Below are positions 41,698 through 56,884 of a stretch of DNA of 64,000 bases, piece after piece (positions within the stretch are counted from its first letter, which is position 1; each line of letters starts with the position of its first letter). A model generated the notes under the pieces. The model ran no database searches and was not told the origin of the DNA. It saw only the letters and a list, made by a program, of their open reading frames with translations. Origin of the DNA: Tachypleus tridentatus (Eukaryota; Arthropoda; Merostomata; Xiphosura; Limulidae); NCBI RefSeq assembly GCF_004210375.1, contig NC_134834.1, positions 140,339,009 through 140,403,008 on the forward strand, given 5' to 3'. Position numbers and translations under genes: made by a program.

Positions 41698-41990
41698 TTA
41701 ATATAGGTATAAAGGCGTTCCTTCATATTGGTTTATTTTGGGTTTAAGTTGTTGTATAAGTAAGACTTCTTTAATTTTGCGTTTGTTTATGTTTCTTTCT
41801 TTATTTAGTATTTGAGTGTTTTCTATGGTTATGTTGTGTTTATTTGACTTGCAATGTTCGAAAACGTGTGAAGGTGACTTTTTATGTTCTTTGAATCTGG
41901 TTTTCATTTTTCTACTTGTTTCTCCAATATAGAAGTCGTGGCAGTAATCACATTGTATTTTATAAATAATGTTGGTGTGGTGTTTGTCAG
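41698..41990 (-). pseudogene. PLE GIY-YIG endonuclease domain
   Basis: Minus-strand reading NIIYKIQCDYCHDFYIGETS, then RKMKTRFKEHK, then VFEHCKSNKHNI and EVLLIQQLKPKINQ. This carries the CxxC-type pair before YIGET, the conserved Arg in RFKEH, and the Glu in KEVLLI, the expected catalytic elements of the PLE GIY-YIG nuclease. The stop is at 41698. This domain appears uninterrupted, unlike the rest of the element. Confidence 0.88.
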
Positions 41991-42337
41991 TGTAGTTTTT
42001 ACATAGTATAGACCTCAGTTTTGTGCTTGGTTTTTGAATAAATTTGGTATTAATTGGAATGTCATATATTGTAATTAGTTTTTGCCAAATGTTAGTTGTC
42101 TGCTGATGTCAAGGATATATGGTATACAGCAGTATATGGTTTCGTGATTTTTTGATTCGTGAGATATATTTACTTTTGTTGGTTGATTTTGCCTTCTGTC
42201 TAGGTGTGTGCTTACAATGTTTTCTACGGTTTGTGGAGGAAACTTATTGATGTTGATGAAGTATTGTTTTATTTTGTCTAATTCATCGTTAATTTTATCT
42301 GGTGAGCATAGTTTTATGGCTGTGTTTATTTGGTTTC

Positions 42338-43162
42338 TTAGTATGTTGAGTTTTTGTTTTGTTTCATGTGTTGAGTCCCAAGGAATGTATAGTCTAGTAT
42401 GGGTGATTTTTCGGTGGATTTCTGTTTTGAATTGAATTGAATTGTAATTTTGAGGTTAAGAAATGATATTTGATTACTTTCTTCCTGTTCACATGTGAAG
42501 TTAATGTTGGGATGTATAGAGTTAATGTGATTGAAAAAATTAAGTATGTGTTCTGTAGATCTAAATCCCGCAACCGTGTCATTTACATATCTGTACCAGT
42601 AAAATGGTGGATGTAATACTGTGTTAATTGCTTGTGTTTCAACTTGTGTCATAAAAATATTGGCTAGAACTGGTGATACTGGGTTGCCCATGCTTAGGCC
42701 ATTTGTTTGTATATAGTTGTGGTTGTTGAACATGAAGTTTGTCTTTATCGTGGTGAATTCTATGAGGGTTGCTAATTGGTTGCTGGGAATGTCTATAGTT
42801 GGGTTCGGGTCTCGGATATAAAGTTCTAAGGCTATCTTGCAGGCTTCAGTGGTTGGAACTTCTGTAAAGAGGGATATAACATTAAAACTGGCCATTAAGG
42901 CTTTATGATTAAGTTGATTTAGATTAGACTTGAAATTAAAAGAGTCTTTGATGAATGAGCTGGCTGATGTTACATATTTGGAGAATGCCCACGCTATGTA
43001 TTTACCAAGATTGTAATTAAACGATTCATATGTGGACATTATTGGTCGTAATGGACAATCTGGTTTATGAGGTTTGGGGATGCCGTATATTTGTGGTGTG
43101 CGTGAGTCGGTTTTACGTAGATAGGGATAAAGTGTTTGTGAAATTGTGTTGGCTTTTTTCAT
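42338..43162 (-). pseudogene. PLE reverse transcriptase core
   Basis: A 274-codon open minus-strand frame. It contains TPQIYGIPKPHKPDCPLRPI (fingers), ASFNVISLFTEVP (motif A, normally FDVVSLFT), GLSMGNPVSPVLANIFM (motif B, normally GLPMGSPLSP.LAN), and YRYVNDTVA (motif C, normally RYVDDT). Both catalytic Asp positions, in motif A and the first of motif C, read Asn, so the enzyme should be dead. The frame ends at TFLGTQHMKQNKNSTY, where a shift separates it from the endonuclease. Confidence 0.93.
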
Positions 43163-44238
43163 TTTTTATTAGTATTTTGTTCAGTTGCATCTCGTGTGTC
43201 TTTGTTAGATTTGTGTGTATTGGTTTAAATTTGTTCGTGTCTGATAGGATATTCTTCATTTTTTGGATGTATTCATTCGTGTTCATTATGACCATAGCGT
43301 TACCTTTATCTGCTTTTAGAATTTTTATGTTTTTGTCTTGTTTTAGATTTTTAATGGAATTAATGTCTCTTTTTGTAAGATTGTTTTTAGTTTTCTGTTT
43401 TGTGAAATTATGTTTATGGTTTTGTGAGAAAATTCTTTGAAAAAATCGTTTAAGATGTTGTTTTTAGGTGTTTCTGGAAAATATAAATTTTTAATTTTTT
43501 TCTGGGAAGTTTGGCTGTTGGATGTCAATAAAATTATCTAGGTTGTCTTCTTTCTGTTGGTTGTTTTCTTGTTTTTGTTTTCTGTAGAACGTGTCACAAG
43601 TCCCCTGGCTAGATCTTCTAAACATGTTTTGATTTCTATGGTTGGAATGTACCTCGGTGCTATTGCGAAGTTGAGTCCTTTGTTAAGTAGATGTATCTCG
43701 TCTGTGTTTAATTGTCGGTCGGATCTGTTAATTATGAGGTTAGTCAACGGTTTGTCGTGTTGTTGTCTTTTCTGTTGTTTGCATCATAGTTTTTCTAGTT
43801 TTTTGTTGTGGCAAATCTTTTTGTCTCTGTCGTTCTTTGTATTGATTTGGTTTATGTTTCGTTATATAAGTCCGTAAATCTCTGGTTTAATGCAATATGC
43901 CAGTTGATGGTCTAGGTTCATTTTTTGTTTTTGTAAGTCATGTAGTTCTTTGTATTTTGTGTTCAACGTGGCTTTAATTAGTTTTTCTGTAAATTTTGGA
44001 TAATGTTTGTGTATTTATTAAATTTTTTTGAAAGTTTTGCCTTCACAAAATTAGGGGTTAGTTGTTCCTTTCTACATTGTTGAATGAAACAGATGTCATT
44101 TCTTTTATTGATAATTCTTTGGTTTAAACTTCTTAGTTTCTTAACGATCGTGTGAGCGTGTACTGTTAATAGTGGTGTACGGTAAACTAGTTCAGACATA
44201 ATGGTAACAGGTAAGTACAAATACACTGAGAGAAACAC
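43113..44238 (-). pseudogene. PLE N-terminal region, frame-broken
   Basis: Four minus-strand open pieces lie in changing frames. 43978-44238 contains NDICFIQQCRKEQLTPNFVK, typical of PLE N-termini. 43538-43747 contains LLNKGLNFAIAPRYIP. 43343-43528 is Lys/Asn-rich. 43113-43295 contains MVIMNTNEYIQKMKNIL, the region normally preceded by KADKGN. Together they cover the part upstream of the reverse transcriptase. The frame changes are disabling. Confidence 0.85.
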
Positions 44239-49345: not shown

Positions 49346-49519
49346 GTCATGTCAAACCCCTTCAAAATTGCATAATAAAAATATATACGTTTACTAATAT
49401 GTTAATCACTAAATAAACAACCTGAAGCTATAATGTAAGTCTTAACTGAATAATCCTTTTTCTACTATAAAACAAAATCTTGATTTTTTAAAAATTGGTT
49501 TATGTGAAAAGAGTTTGAA

Positions 49520-49548
<29 letters not shown>
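49520..49548. repeat. (TA)14 microsatellite
   Basis: About 14 TA repeats, followed by TGTATGTGTCTGTGTG. Confidence 0.95.
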
Positions 49549-49555
<7 letters not shown>

Positions 49556-49909
49556 CTGTGTGAAATTATGTGATATTTGTAATTAAGCAGATTAATCGAG
49601 ACACTGTGATTAATACGAATTCGAAACTCACTCTTCTGTCAACTATCTAATTAAGAATGCTATTAAAATTAACAACTTAAGTATAGAATGATTTTTATAT
49701 AGGTATGACAAAGTTTACTATTACTAAATAATCATGTAGGTCCTACTTGTGATTTTTCTCTTGAGACTTTTCTCCATAAACATAATTCATGTAAGCCATT
49801 TTATTGCCTATCATATAACACATACTGCATTTTAATCGCATATACTAGCTTCCAACACATATATTTAGTGATTATAAGTTAAACATATACTACGTATACT
49901 GACACATGA

Positions 49910-50148
49910 CGTAATCTGAGGGTCGCGGGTTCGCATCCCCGTCGCGCCAAACATGCTCGCCCTTTCAGCCGTGGGGGCGTTATAAAGTGACGGTCAATCC
50001 CACTATTCGTTGGTAAAAGAGTAGCCCAAGAGTTGGCGGTGGGTGGTGATGACTAGCTGCCTTCCCTCTAGTCTTACACTGCTAAATTAGGGACGGCTAG
50101 CACGGATAGCCCTCGAGTAACTTTGCGCGAAATTCAAAAAACAAACAA
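49910..50148 (+). mobile_element. SINE-A, 5'-truncated within the tRNA head
   Basis: Begins at CGTAATCTGAGGGTCGCGGG, in the anticodon loop, so the A-box is missing. The rest is close to the family consensus. A perfect 12-bp duplication ACTGACACATGA flanks it (49898-49909 and 50149-50160). This shows a genuine truncated integration rather than later deletion. Confidence 0.95.
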
Positions 50149-50160
50149 ACTGACACATGA

Positions 50161-50696
50161 GTGAAGATTAAAATATTAAACTAATTCATATTAAAAACTA
50201 GTTTAGTTCCTCAAACTTCTACTTAATTAAAGTTAGTTATAAGTAAAGTGTACGATCTGTAAGATTTATACGAATATTAAGCCTAAGATCTGCAATACAT
50301 TTTTAATTGTAAAGTCAGTTAAATCTAAATGTTGTGGCTATAACTTTTCTTACTTTTAATACTTAACAACGAGAATGATAAACGTTGAGACATTTCAACA
50401 TATTAGTGGCTATGTTTAACTCCAATGCTCATTAATCAGGCTCTCTAAAATCAAAATATGATAACTGTAACGAAATCAAACATCTGTTCAAACATCCGTT
50501 TTAAAGAAACCGTACAAATTACAATAGCACAGTAATCGTTTTAATCCAATATAGCAAGCCTAAAGTGTTTTGTTATTTTTTCATTACGCAATGCCAAGGA
50601 CAAGATTCAAAATCCGCAACGAGATAAACATAAAATTTCATACAATCCATTATGTAAGGGATCGATCATGACTTCTTGCCTCGACAGTCACTGAAA
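50161..50696. other. Upstream region of the astacin gene
   Basis: AT-rich with no clear TATA box or repeat. An upstream ATG at 50668 opens an 8-codon frame that stops at 50692-50694, three bases before the astacin start, and could dampen translation if transcribed. Confidence 0.3.
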
Positions 50697-50748
50697 ATGT
50701 GTCTATCTGTACTTGATCTATGTTTCCTATTAGCCATCACATCAGCCA
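50697..50748 (+). CDS. Astacin exon 1: signal peptide
   Basis: [17 protein letters not shown] is a 17-residue hydrophobic leader ending in a small-residue cleavage context. Donor is A|GTAAGTATA, intron phase 1. This ATG is chosen because it gives a signal peptide and joins exon 2 in phase. Confidence 0.75.
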
Positions 50749-53700
50749 GTAAGTATAAGCCTGAAAATAAACCAATCTAAATCCTGTTAAACAAGTCCAA
50801 TATCATTTTTATGCATTTGTTGGCCTATGCTTTATCCATATTGGTTTTATCTCATTATTTCTACGTAACGCACTATTCAATAATGTTGTTTTGTATTTAT
50901 AAATTATATGCTATTCTAAGCTTCTCGCATAAAGATTCTTGGTCTAAAAAATCAGTTTTACTTTTCATCATTATTTGCGATATCGTTAGCAACAAATAAT
51001 TGCAGGTTTTAATGTAACGATCTAACCTCCGCCCTGAAAAAAACAATTACTTCTCTCTAAGTTACTTTCACGACAAAGTTTTATTCTTGAAATTCATACC
51101 AAGCTCTCCCAGACTCTCGATTAGTTTATCTCGATTTTTTTAAATATATTTTATTTCATGCGAAACCGTATAATTTATTTTTTTAAACGTCCTTCACATT
51201 GAAGACCTACCTATGCTCAACCCTGAACTATTTGAAGGACATATAGTGGGAATTGATAGTTTTGAGGTAAGCTAACATCTTGTATTGCTACCACACTTAA
51301 GCCTACAGCGTCCCCTTGTGGACAGCTGTAATTCACTATCTACGTAATGGTTGTATTTGAGGTAGTTATTATAAAAACAAAAGAAATTCATTACAAAAGA
51401 AGAATACAAACAGGCTTATTTATATTGATCACTTTGGTTAATAGTTAAAAACTTATTATTGTTAGGATTTCAGTTCCCAGATAGACAAACGAACCAACTG
51501 GCAAATAGATAATCGTTTGTTGCTTTTTTCTCATATCTCTGTTATATGTATACTTATGTTCGCAGAACAGAAATGCTCTTCCTTATGACGACCAGCTCTA
51601 GCCAGATGGAGTTATACCTTATATGATTGACTCCTCACTGTGTAAGTTGGATGTCTAATATTTCACACATATCTATAAAGAATTAATTGAATTAAATTCT
51701 TCTAAACTGCTTCCAGCACATTAAACTATCCCAATAACACATTCCTTTCAATTTCGTCTTTACTGATTTTGAACTAGAAATGTGTAAAAATATTATTTCA
51801 GATTTATCGTTTTATCAAACATATTAGAATTATTACAATCGTTTGTGACCGTCTTTCTTCCTTTGTGCTGCTTTAGTGAAACATGATCTTCTTTATATTG
51901 GAATTATACGACTAAACTTGTGAAGTTATTCATTTTTTGTACCATTTTATTCTATAGCGGAGATCGAAGGCTTAATCCTACGTTCTATGAGCCAATATCA
52001 TGAAAAAACTTGCATTAGATTCAAGGAGAGAACAAATGAATTGAACTACATTCGAGTGTTTAAAGGAGAAGGGTAAGATCAATATTGACTATCATATCTA
52101 TAGAATTTATCAAAACATGAATATTTAAGCTACTAGAAATTTTTCACTTGATTCTTTTGCTTTAATTGCAGTTTTGGACATATGTGGTAACGATTTGTGT
52201 TAACCTTTCCTTTAATAACTGTTTGTTTGTTTGTTTTTGAATTTCGCACAAAGCTACTCGAGGGCTACCTGCGCTAGCCGTCCCTAATTTAGCAGTGTAA
52301 GACTAGAGGGAAGACAGCTAGTTATCACCATCCATTGCCAACTCTTAAGCTACTCTTTTACCAACGAATAGTGGGATTGACCGTCACATTATAACGCCCC
52401 CACGGCTGAAAAGGCAAGTATGTTTGGTGCGACGGGGATGCGAACCCGCGACCCTCAGATTACGAGTCGCAGACTTTAATCCACCTGGCCATGCCTCCTT
52501 TAATAAACTTACAAAACTGACTTTGACAATATCCAGAAAGATACGAAACCCTATAACCGAAGCGCTTTCGAAAGGTGGCATTTCTTTAAGGGAAAAGTGG
52601 AAAATATATGAATTGTTTAATGTGTCTGTGTGTGTGTTAGTTTTTTCTTATAGCAAAGCCACATCAGGGTATCCACTATATCCACGAGGGAAATCGAACC
52701 CTTGATTTCAGCGCTGTAAATCAATAGATTAACCGCTGTCCCTGCGAGAGATGACAATCTAAAGTAAATAAAATGTGTCTAAATGCTAAGCTATATGAAC
52801 TTTAAAGTCTTGGCTAGTATTATATTAAGTAGTTCAATTTTTGAACACAGGAGTTGCTAAATTTAAGTTCTAGAGATGAATGCTATTTGTAATTTTTACT
52901 ATTGCCAGCAGGTAGTGTTATTAATCTAAACTTATTTCTATAAGCTTATAGCTCATACATATTCTGCAATTTCTGTTTTTAAACTTAGTAATTTTCAATA
53001 ATACTAGCTATTCTCTCTGTTTGTGCAAAACTATACAACGGGCTATTCTTTTGTGCCTTCCACGAGTATGTTGTCACTTTAATAATTTTATCTAAACAAA
53101 GGTTTGTAAACAAACTGTATTTGCACCTTATCCTTTAGTAGTTTGATAAACAAAGTAGGCTCAACCACCTCAACATAGTTAAGGTTCGTCTGTAGTTACT
53201 ACTTACAGGAAATTATACACACTTGTAACAATATCAAAACACATAAACTCAAATTAGGACTTTCTCGAGAAAACTGATAAAATGTTATAAATGTAGAAAC
53301 ATTGGTTTAGTTACATTTCTTACCGACAGAAGAAGAAATTATCTGTCTTTCATATATTAATTAGAAATATAACACAAACTAATAGAAATATAGTACAAAG
53401 TAATGAAAAACGTTTTGCAAATGGCGCCAACAACAATCACCTGCACGCAGATCCTGTTTGCTGGAGAGTAAAATCAACTATTACTCTTAGGTTCATTTCG
53501 AACATTTAGCCTGGCTATATAAAGTATACGAATTTTAATATCCTATTATTTCTGCATATCTACGTTGTTATACTTAATAAGAATAAAAAATGTATAACAA
53601 CAAATTAAATTATGCATCTAACATTTCTGTAGGTTGATTACATTCAGAATTTTATTTAATTAATTATATTTGTGTTAGAAATGAGGTCTTCATGAAAAAC

Positions 53701-55684
53701 TAATTCGTTTTGTTCCTTTAATAAATTAAGTTTTATGTTTACATTCTGCAGGAATAATCAAACAAAGAAAATGATTGTTCATTTTTTTTAATATTTTAAT
53801 CACGTACCGCCGCATTGTCGTTTTTACTAATACAATGTTGAAGCTATTTTTTCTTCAATTTTTCAGATGTTATTCGTATGTCGGTGATTTAAAAATAGGC
53901 TCTCAAAAGTTGTCTCTGGGCATTGGATGTGACTATTTAGGAACTGTTGTTCATGAACTTGGTCATGCTGTAGGTGTCAGGCACGAACACAGCAGATCTG
54001 ATCGAGATGACTACCTGTACATCTTTTGGAACAATATCAAACCCGGTATGTTAGTAAAAAAAATATTGTATCCAAAATCGTTACCGAGTTGGAACATTCA
54101 CACATTTTCACACAGATTACAAAACAAAAGATGTATTTCACAATATACCATCACATGAACAGGAAGCTTTGAGTTTTAGCTTTGTTTTATTATGTAAGCT
54201 AAGAATGTATCGATTTTCATGACTTAATAGTAATTAACAAGAGAAAATAAATAAAGTTTGGAGTAACTTCTACAATTTTACCTTAAACATATTTGATTGA
54301 AGTTCAATACATTGAACTTACTTTTATTTCAATCATGCTTCGAAAAGCTAGAAAACACGTTATTTTTACTGTGTTTCAGATCAGATCATTAATAAATAAT
54401 GCATAAATGTTTATTGTCGTAGTACATTTCTGAAAAAAACTTTCAAATGCCTCAGAAAACAGAAATATGTATGTTTTGAAACACAAAATTACTCAAACTG
54501 TTTATCTGTGCTGTATTTACAGCGAGTATTGAAATCCATGTTTTAGCATTATAAGCTGTGCCACCGGAAGAGGATAGGACGGAAGCAATGTAATCCTTAA
54601 ATGTAGGTCTTGTTGACTCATACTTTGATTATTTGAATCTTGGAACGTTCTATAGAAAGTGTTTGACACTTTATTAATGTAAGCTCTTTTCAGGTGACCT
54701 CACTTTATTAACTAAATTGTACAAAGAGAACAATTCTAACTTAAACTCACAAACAGAAAGTAATTAGTAAACTTGGTTTCATTGCAGGGAGTGAGTGTTA
54801 GCTTATAGGAAAGCCACATTGGGCTACCTGCTGAGTCCCCTGAGGTGAATCGCACACTTGATTTTAGCGTTGTAAATCCGTAGACTTACCGCTGTACCAG
54901 CGGGAAACGTTTATTGCACGGATGTAAAACGTAAAGATGGCAAAATATCTCTAAGTTGAAATCAAGAAAAGATAATTAAGACTAATGGTTTGATATTCGA
55001 GTTAATTTTCAGATATGTTTTTCTCATTGTGTAAGAGGCCCGGCGTGGCCAGGTGGGTTAAGGCGTTCGACTCGTAATCCGAGGATCGTGGGTTCGAATC
55101 CTTATCGCACCAAAATGCTCGCCCTCTCAGTCGTGAGGGCGTTATAATATTACAGTCAATCCCACTATTCGTTGGTAAAAGAGTAGCCCAAAAGTTGGTG
55201 GTTGGTGGTGATAACTAGCTGCCTTCCCTCTAGTCTTATACTGCTAAATTAGGTACGGCTAGCGCAGATAGTCCTCATGTAGCTTTGCGCGAAATTAAAA
55301 ACAAAATCATTGTGTAAGATAAACCTAAGATTTAGTTTATAGTTTTGTTTCTTAGATAAGAGTATATACAGTACAACCTATGCTTTTTTTTAAAAAAAAC
55401 TTTAGAATCGTTCACTGCTTCATGGTCATAATAAACTGTATATTAATTTATTTGGCACAGGTATGGAAAATCAGTTTAAAAGGTTACTACCATCCCAGAA
55501 TCGTTTGTTGGATAATTTCGACAATGACTCTATCATGTTGTATGGTAGTAAAACATTTTCTAAGGACAAAGTTTCGATTACCATGGCAGCCAAAGATGAT
55601 ACCATTCTACAGAAAGTTACCGAAAAGAAAAGTTTAAGCAAGAGTAACGTCATTCGAATCAATAAATTGTATAAATGTGTTTAA
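50697..55684 (+). CDS. Astacin-family zinc metalloprotease, six exons, one internal TAG
   Basis: A secreted M12A endopeptidase. Exons are 50697-50748, 51205-51266, 51566-51641, 51958-52072, 53867-54045 and 55461-55684; all introns are GT..AG and phases agree (708 nt, 235 codons plus stop). Residues 1-17 form a signal peptide, about 18-40 a short propeptide, and 41-235 the catalytic domain, close to the 200 residues of crayfish astacin. Zinc site [13 protein letters not shown] has His131, Glu132, His135 and His141. The Met-turn SIMLYG has Met187 and Tyr189. All four astacin cysteines are present (TCIRF, GCYS, GCDY, LYKC). No CUB or EGF domain follows. Codon 50 is TAG where the family has Trp (WPxGxIPY), so the allele is a null, a recent pseudogene, or a sequence error. 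Substrates are unknown. Confidence 0.92.
51205..51266 (+). CDS. Astacin exon 2: propeptide with FEGH
   Basis: Codes [20 protein letters not shown] after the split codon. 'NPELFEG' is the conserved astacin propeptide block. The Asp that normally follows (FxGD, the inhibitory zinc ligand) is His here (CAT at 51240-51242). Acceptor CATTGAAG has a modest pyrimidine tract; donor GAG|GTAAGC, phase 0. Confidence 0.8.
51566..51641 (+). CDS. Astacin exon 3: mature N-terminus, contains TAG
   Basis: Codes [11 protein letters not shown], stop, [13 protein letters not shown]. 'RNA' marks the maturation site and 'WPxGxIPYxI' follows in active family members; the Trp codon reads TAG at 51599-51601. Acceptor TTCGCAG, donor T|GTAAGT, phase 1. 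Sequence on both sides of the stop is normal astacin. Confidence 0.88.
51958..52072 (+). CDS. Astacin exon 4
   Basis: Codes (S)[21 protein letters not shown] and then [17 protein letters not shown]. 'AMxxYHxxTCIRFxxRT' is a family hallmark with the first disulfide Cys. Acceptor TTCTATAG, donor GG|GTAAGA, phase 2. Confidence 0.93.
52219..52495 (-). mobile_element. SINE-A, full length, in astacin intron 4
   Basis: Tail TTTGTTTGTTTTTGAATTTC, complete body, head ending GGCCATGCC. Perfect 11-bp duplication TCCTTTAATAA at 52208-52218 and 52496-52506. Open frames 52384-52581 (-) and 52424-52705 (+) are SINE-driven and not genes. Confidence 0.95.
52621..52745 (-). mobile_element. SINE-B copy in astacin intron 4
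   Basis: TTCTTATAGCAAAGCCACAT, GAAATCGAACCCTTGATTTC, AGCGCTGTAAATCAATAGAT, TAACCGCTGTCCCTGCG. Minus-strand tRNA head. Confidence 0.85.
53023..53075 (-). mobile_element. SINE-C tail fragment
   Basis: TTTGTGCAAAACTATACAAC, GGGCTATTCTTTTGTGCC and CCACGAGTATG match only the 3' half of SINE-C. Confidence 0.45.
53867..54045 (+). CDS. Astacin exon 5: zinc-binding motif
   Basis: Codes [40 protein letters not shown] and [20 protein letters not shown]. This carries the HExxHxxGxxHExxR site with SxRxDRDxYV-like continuation and two disulfide cysteines. The first His codon is at 53952-53954. Acceptor CAATTTTTCAG, donor CCCG|GTATGT, phase 1. A longer unspliced reading (53775-54158) would run into intron sequence. 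Confidence 0.96.
54505..54575 (-). mobile_element. SINE-C fragment in astacin intron 5
   Basis: CTGTTTATCTGTGCTGTATT, GAGTATTGAAATCCATGTTT, TAGCATTATAAGCTGTGCCA. Degraded, middle part only. Confidence 0.5.
54788..54906 (-). mobile_element. SINE-B copy in astacin intron 5
   Basis: GTTAGCTTATAGGAAAGCCA, TTGGGCTACCTGCTGAGTCC, TTTTAGCGTTGTAAATCCGT, AGACTTACCGCTGTACCAGC. One of the clearest family members. Confidence 0.9.
55037..55306 (+). mobile_element. SINE-A, full length, in astacin intron 5
   Basis: GGCCCGGCGTGGCCAGGTGG start, B-box GGTTCGAATCC, tail GCGCGAAATTAAAAACAAAA. Perfect 13-bp duplication TCATTGTGTAAGA at 55024-55036 and 55307-55319. Confidence 0.96.
55461..55684 (+). CDS. Astacin exon 6: Met-turn and C-terminus
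   Basis: Codes [36 protein letters not shown] and ends [11 protein letters not shown] plus TAA at 55682-55684. It contains the Met-turn SIM.Y and the last disulfide Cys in LYKC. The usual His of SIMHYG is Leu. Acceptor TTGGCACAG. No AATAAA signal is seen soon after the stop; AATAAA at 55661 lies within the coding sequence. Confidence 0.95.
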
Positions 55685-55854
55685 AGACAGCTTTAGATAA
55701 ATGTCCTTTGTAACATGGTTGTGTGTATTAGTGTTATATGACTCTTTATAATGTCAGTAAAATTAAGTAAAGTCTTCATCGACATTATGCGTCATTTAGC
55801 TTCAGCATTGAAGCTTCTTATGGATACTTTACTGGTAATAACAGTGGACCGTAT

Positions 55855-56121
55855 ATTGGCCAGATGGTTAGGGTGCTAGATTTGTAATCTGAGGGTCGCG
55901 GATTCGAATACCCATCACAAACAACATGCTTGCTCTTTCAGCCGTGAGGGCATTATAATGTGACGATCAATCCAACCTCTCGTTGGTAAAAGAATAGCCC
56001 AAGAGTTGACGGTGGGTGTTATGACTAGCTGCCTTCCCTCTAGTCTTACACTTCTAAATTAGGGATGGCCGACGCAGATAGCTCTCGTGTAGCTTTGCGC
56101 AAAATTCCAAAACATACAAAC
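55855..56121 (+). mobile_element. SINE-A, near full length
   Basis: GGACCGTATATTGGCCAGAT is a mutated head, GATTCGAATACCC a diverged B-box, and the body is complete to GCGCAAAATTCCAAAACATAC. Lies 170 bp after the astacin stop. Confidence 0.92.
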
Positions 56122-56267
56122 AGATTGATATGAGTAACGCAACTACTAATAATTGCAACATATATAAATTTACATTGGGTAGCAAATTCAAAATCATAAC
56201 ATATAAAGCACTCAATTCCGTTTAAATAACAATGACAGAGCTTTGCACTAAAGTTTTATATTGTTTG

Positions 56268-56378
56268 TATTTTTATAGCAAAGCACATCTGACTATTTGT
56301 TGTGTCAATCTATGAGGATCGAATCGCTGATTTTAGCGTTGTAAATCCATAAACGTATCGCTGTCCCTGCGGGTAACA
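56268..56378 (-). mobile_element. SINE-B copy
   Basis: TTATAGCAAAGCACATCTGA, TGAGGATCGAATCGCTGATT, TTAGCGTTGTAAATCCATAA, TCGCTGTCCCTGCGGG. Confidence 0.85.
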
Positions 56379-56884
56379 TCGTTGAGGCAATGTAGGCGTG
56401 GAAGAGTTTAATATTGTTTGGTATAGTTTTTGTTCACACGATTATTTAGGTTTCAGTCTGAAACAAACGTGGAAACTCTTCAGTTTTATAAATAAAATTT
56501 GTGTCATTTCTTTTGTGCATTGGATCAAGTATGAGGCCACATTAGGTTGTGGAACCCAAATAAAGTAATATACATTTGTATGCATATATAAATACGTCAT
56601 ATTACATGTCTATTTTTACGTAGGTAACACTATCTGTCCAGTTTATCCACGATGTTAAAAGAATGGTCATTACTTCTGACTATGGCATTAAAATGGGTAA
56701 ATCATTATCTTCTTTAATTGCCTTGTAAATTTAATAATTTTCGTAGTTTAGAAATATGACAGTACACATAGAATAGAGAAATTATAAAACTCTGAAGAAT
56801 ATGACTATATTTCATCATCTACGGAAGTTTAAAAAAATATATATTTAATAATATTACTAAACATAGTTTACTATTTTATGCTTG

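Follow-up and report, generated by a model that had tools for sequence, protein, structure and literature searches.

Among described systems, the horseshoe-crab astacin proteases LAST and LAST-MAM (M12A) stand closest to the gene analysed here. They have in common with it a signal peptide followed by a short propeptide and then the catalytic domain, an identical zinc motif and a Met-turn with Leu before Tyr; the gene differs from them by a stop at codon 50, by His in place of the switch Asp, and by Val-Arg instead of Phe-Trp before the third zinc His. Its lesion resembles those of unprocessed pseudogenes of multigene families, in which a point nonsense mutation strikes one member and the sisters are open or decayed, and set against that class the gene has so far shown nothing distinctive beyond the single lesion. 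In Carcinoscorpius rotundicauda, Unpg-A1 offers a similar case of the ongoing loss of a duplicated horseshoe-crab gene (PMC7815833 section 10), but there a deletion was scored in individuals, whereas here a nonsense codon is seen in one assembly. The correction of premature stops by A-to-I editing in fungi, as presented in extracts of PMC7306014, likewise concerns UAG at a Trp position, and our site differs from it in having no unusual duplex and in being known from DNA alone.

A six-exon astacin gene with a stop at codon 50

The window, that is, the whole stretch of 64,000 nucleotides from Tachypleus tridentatus that was analysed, contains the following parts of an astacin gene:

50697 to 50748, + strand: exon 1 (52 nt), with the start codon and, by eye, a signal-peptide-like stretch; ends in phase 1
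51205 to 51266, + strand: exon 2 (62 nt), propeptide with FEGH (FEGD in the paralogues found)
51566 to 51641, + strand: exon 3 (76 nt), maturation region and N-terminus of the catalytic domain; contains the nonsense codon
51599 to 51601, + strand: nonsense codon TAG, codon 50, at the family Trp position
51958 to 52072, + strand: exon 4 (115 nt), first disulphide Cys
53867 to 54045, + strand: exon 5 (179 nt), zinc site
55461 to 55684, + strand: exon 6 (224 nt), Met-turn SIMLYG, last Cys and TAA

Splicing of these six exons gave an in-phase sequence of 708 nt (235 codons and the terminal TAA), with GT-AG borders at all five introns. The frame expected of an Astacin (M12A) gene is interrupted once within the 708 nt, by the TAG at codon 50 of 235, which is an inactivating lesion at a conserved position of the kind that marks a pseudogene or null allele. 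With X placed at codon 50, the product matched the Pfam Astacin profile at 189.2 bits (E 7.5e-56; cut-off 22.5) over residues 51-234. Its best solved relative was 8a28_A (‘Metalloendopeptidase’; 190.8 bits over residues 18-234), which we assume is the zymogen of Limulus pLAST-MAM described in PMC9629494. Motif definitions were taken from extracts of PMC9848320 (HEXXHXXGXXH, the following Glu and the Met-turn) and PMC9629494, and the translation was found to contain the three zinc His, the catalytic Glu, the Met-turn Met with its Tyr, and the four catalytic-domain Cys. These results bear out the first-pass annotation of the locus as an in-phase astacin of six exons and 235 residues, with zinc ligands and cysteines kept and no second frame break. 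Leu for His of SIMHY in the Met-turn was considered as a further lesion and rejected, being shared with paralogues and with the solved Limulus zymogen, whose Met-turn ends in L197 (PMC9629494).

Astacin loci elsewhere in the genome

A Pfam profile search of the T. tridentatus genome (2,167,478,450 bases in 205 contigs) returned 54 exon matches, of which 26 (counted by hand) cover the zinc-site exon; the genome therefore holds about 26 astacin loci, locus counts from this search being lower bounds. For the exon comparison, 22 loci were fetched and exon 3 was readable in 15. No exon-3 match was printed for the other seven (L010, L024, L028, L029, L030, L034 and L035), with L035 left without a reading as loci lacking an exon-5 match were passed over. 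Every readable paralogue exon 3 (15/15) has Trp at the position of codon 50, encoded as TGG, just as had been expected from the family motif at first reading, and TAG is one transition away from it. Two transitions lead from TGG to a stop, and its stop-prone weight was 3.14 against a mean of 1.31 over the 85 other codons that lie one step from stop; Trp codons are therefore ready targets, with a single TGG codon receiving only about 2.7% of all stop hits. Hence a stop is mildly more likely at a Trp codon, and no special cause has to be invoked for it.

The closest exon match of the window gene elsewhere in its own genome, by protein search, was 67% over 66 residues. A DNA query of 421 bases with exon 3 in its middle retrieved only the window from the same assembly; as far as this search shows, its counts being lower bounds, the exon-3 region occurs there once. 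On these two results we rejected a near-identical working copy elsewhere, and we regard the gene as a diverged member, present in single copy, of a T. tridentatus astacin family that is both tandem and dispersed.

Lesions were also found in other members of the astacin group (L026b, L010, L022 and L012). An open-looking copy, L014, lies about 56 kb downstream of the window gene (exons 2-6 open, exon 1 not established) and is preceded by two decayed copies. The neighbour L010 is decayed, with TAA and TGA stops and a zinc motif that reads HKLNQ, as is L012, which consists of remnants and fragments on the other strand. In L022 (C10:146.79 Mb), which by exon 5 is nearest to the window gene, the frame is broken within a T run of exon 6 (about 285-315, - strand), either by a true lesion or by an assembly indel. 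L026b (C10:95.48 Mb) carries TAG at a different Trp codon; L026a and L027 are open across exons 2-6. The group therefore mixes open and broken genes, which gives a picture of birth-and-death evolution.

In the near-identical tandem group at C10:95.46-95.49 Mb, the third member (L026, 8426-8247 and 7557-7336, - strand), with TAG at a Trp codon, showed far too many differences that change amino acids (omega at bound), of which gene conversion is a possible cause.

Altered residues and selection on the window branch

At first reading the gene had been called otherwise perfectly spliced and complete; an otherwise perfect gene would be an overstatement, as several residues conserved in the family are altered (Asp to His, Phe-Trp to Val-Arg and Tyr to Asn). 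The propeptide reads FEGH, against FEGD in 8/8 of the paralogue exon 2s found, and so departs from the pattern FXGD with a zinc-blocking Asp; in the horseshoe crab this zymogen residue, D38, blocks the zinc (PMC9629494). The gene thus descends from astacins, but it may not encode a zymogen that is latent in the normal way. Before the third zinc His it reads GVRHE, with Val-Arg instead of Phe-Trp, at two positions where paralogue exon 5s have F in 22/22 and W in 19/22, and the Tyr of FDY is replaced by Asn. Counted over columns invariant in the other rows compared, changes numbered 5/55 in the window gene (stop column not counted) and 2/52, 2/50, 3/53, 0/50, 0/50, 0/47 and 4/54 in the seven other rows, the comparison covering 8 of the 11 aligned rows (L010, L026b and L027 left out). 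This apparent excess over the other rows is suggestive, not strong. The altered residues hint at relaxed constraint preceding the stop, for which codon-model support is weak, and drift at several conserved positions had probably begun by the time the stop arose.

Codon models were fitted to 9 of the 11 aligned rows with stops masked (L010, which is decayed, and L028 left out). With long-branch distances near saturation, omega was 0.219 on the window branch and 0.134 in the background, a difference that is not significant (2dlnL 1.21). Fixing omega = 1 over the whole window branch fitted worse (2dlnL 5.56) and the estimate is not significantly above background, so most of the history of this branch was constrained. 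Control values of omega were 0.156 for L014, 0.146 for L022, 0.123 for the L026-group stem and 0.026 for L031; for the broken L026b omega hit the upper bound (7.39), and this value therefore means only ‘high’.

A two-epoch model (functional, then neutral) of the window branch gained 2dlnL 4.47 over the model with no neutral epoch, with 0.33 substitutions per codon in the neutral part. We treat this signal as weak because the open copy L014 also gained 2.22; L022 gained 0.11, and L031, L017 and L025 nothing. A neutral epoch of the fitted length predicts about three further stops (stop fraction 0.0444) and none was observed, so that only a shorter neutral epoch or relaxed-but-open evolution fits. 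Under an indel rate that we assumed to be 0.05 to 0.15 per substitution, the probability of a further lesion would reach 95% once more than 0.045 to 0.022 substitutions per site had accumulated after the loss. Given that there is no other frame lesion, the best reading of the residue changes is that selection was relaxed or altered while the frame remained open, and we infer an order in which such selection came first and the stop late.

Interpretation of the nonsense codon

We observe a stop codon, a frame and splice sites that are intact elsewhere, Trp in the paralogues, and decayed sister copies. The gene has probably become a pseudogene that was fixed recently, or else the sequenced animal carries a null allele of it; in either case the origin would be a genomic nonsense mutation. 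A transition from the Trp codon to TAG in the genome would have inactivated one member of the astacin family. Translation of a transcript, if one is made, would end in exon 3 of 6, at codon 50, and would yield no more than the signal peptide and propeptide; the transcript would be an expected target of nonsense-mediated decay. The product would then be absent and the loss recent. With about 25 further astacin loci still present, such a loss may be tolerated, and it is ordinary in kind for a large family with other broken members. A very young pseudogene or null allele was among the first-pass suggestions, and it is the one best supported by the single lesion, the intact splice sites, the purifying selection seen over the branch as a whole, the lack of a near-identical copy and a family with broken copies. 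Its youth fits the absence of a second frame lesion; the picture of an otherwise perfect gene is not supported. Restart at the next ATG (codon 58) was rejected as a source of secreted enzyme, since the product would lack signal peptide and propeptide.

The main rival is an assembly or sequencing error, by which the animal would have the Trp codon and the gene would be intact. The assembly agrees in size with a T. tridentatus assembly published before mid-2019, which comprises 2,167,470,406 bases in 204 scaffolds with a contig N50 of 1.69 Mb (PMC7815833 Table 1), so that some remaining errors are plausible. The frame break of L022 in a T run is in a typical place for an indel error, and the remaining frame of the window gene is clean. 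However, the TAG is a substitution and not an indel, it sits in a group with other lesions, and an error does not account for the several other altered conserved residues; we consider an error unlikely, while giving it more weight than any of the other alternatives. Two other T. tridentatus assemblies exist (WCHN00000000 and QXHF01000000; PMC7815833 Table 1).

The stop might also be bypassed by joint skipping of exons 2 and 3 (62 + 76 = 138 nt), which joins the signal peptide to exon 4 and leaves the frame open to the end. The product, however, would have neither a propeptide nor the beginning of the catalytic domain, and so would also lack the mature N-terminus, which in astacins binds the family glutamate (PMC9848320), and we hold this bypass to be very improbable. 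Skipping of exons 2-5 also keeps the frame; skipping of exons 3-4, 3-5 or 2-4 breaks it, as does skipping of exon 3 alone because it is 76 nt long. An alternative exon 3 in the window was rejected, the sole exon-3 match (E up to 5) being the exon itself.

RNA editing from A to I would turn UAG into UIG, read as UGG (Trp), and render the stop in the DNA silent. A context that ADAR enzymes favour has U before and G after the edited A, as at the TAG site. Fungi correct UAG to Trp in pseudogene-like kinase genes, according to the extracts of PMC7306014 that describe them. Against this, the best duplex of the site within 50500-55900 (5.4 kb) was -33.3 kcal/mol, a value equalled or bettered by 38% of 88 tiled segments, and no inverted-repeat arm covered the site in any of 16 pairs (at least 20 nt, 49500-56500). 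Local folds gave z -1.66 over 115 nt (10/200 shuffles as good), which speaks mildly for a hairpin, and z -1.14 over 241 nt (24/200). Among the matches listed in the literature for horseshoe crab and RNA editing, the titles concerned mitochondrial or mite genomes. ADAR-type editing calls for double-stranded RNA around the edited A, and neither a duplex nor a hairpin out of the ordinary was seen in the segments covered, a remote partner being outside their scope; editing, which the first-pass annotation had raised, is without positive support. We regard it as extremely unlikely, and would say the same of an editing switch for production of this protease as an animal counterpart of the fungal correction.

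Ribosomal readthrough of the UAG, also raised there, is just as improbable: UAG followed by C, as here, is moderately leaky in some settings and constraint persists along the window branch, but the context CUC-UAG-CCA lacks the readthrough motif CARYYA, and 15/15 paralogues keep Trp, so that such recoding is not something that the family conserves, and no positive evidence favours it.

If the gene is indeed a pseudogene or null allele, it would add one more case of turnover among the astacin genes of horseshoe crabs. Its use would lie mainly in being a marker, a clean single-base lesion by which the loss could be dated through scoring of populations and of the three other species. Gene models built on this assembly may leave the locus out or distort it. 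The case would be of wide interest only if the RNA had the Trp codon.

Other elements

Copies of a tRNA-derived-looking SINE lie in opposite orientations at 49910-50140 and 52234-52464, and at 55042-55306 and 55879-56131. The pairs reach up to 231 nt at 93% complementarity and flank exons 1-4 and exon 5; pairing of the copies in the pre-mRNA could affect splicing. Upstream, a reverse-transcriptase frame at 42338-43165 (- strand; Pfam RVT_1 31.9 bits, cut-off 29.6) adjoins frames at 41698-42108 and 43113-43463 (both - strand), and looks Penelope-like by eye. The frame at 41698-42108 (- strand) is possibly a GIY-YIG-like end, with no Pfam recognition. Outside the window, two coagulogen exons of this genome agree with PDB 1aoc, a T. 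tridentatus protein, at 48/48 and 48/51 residues; the three mismatches fall among the first five residues, which are probably intron. At L036, an intron of the coagulogen gene contains a long tandem array, visible as a repeated peptide in all three frames.
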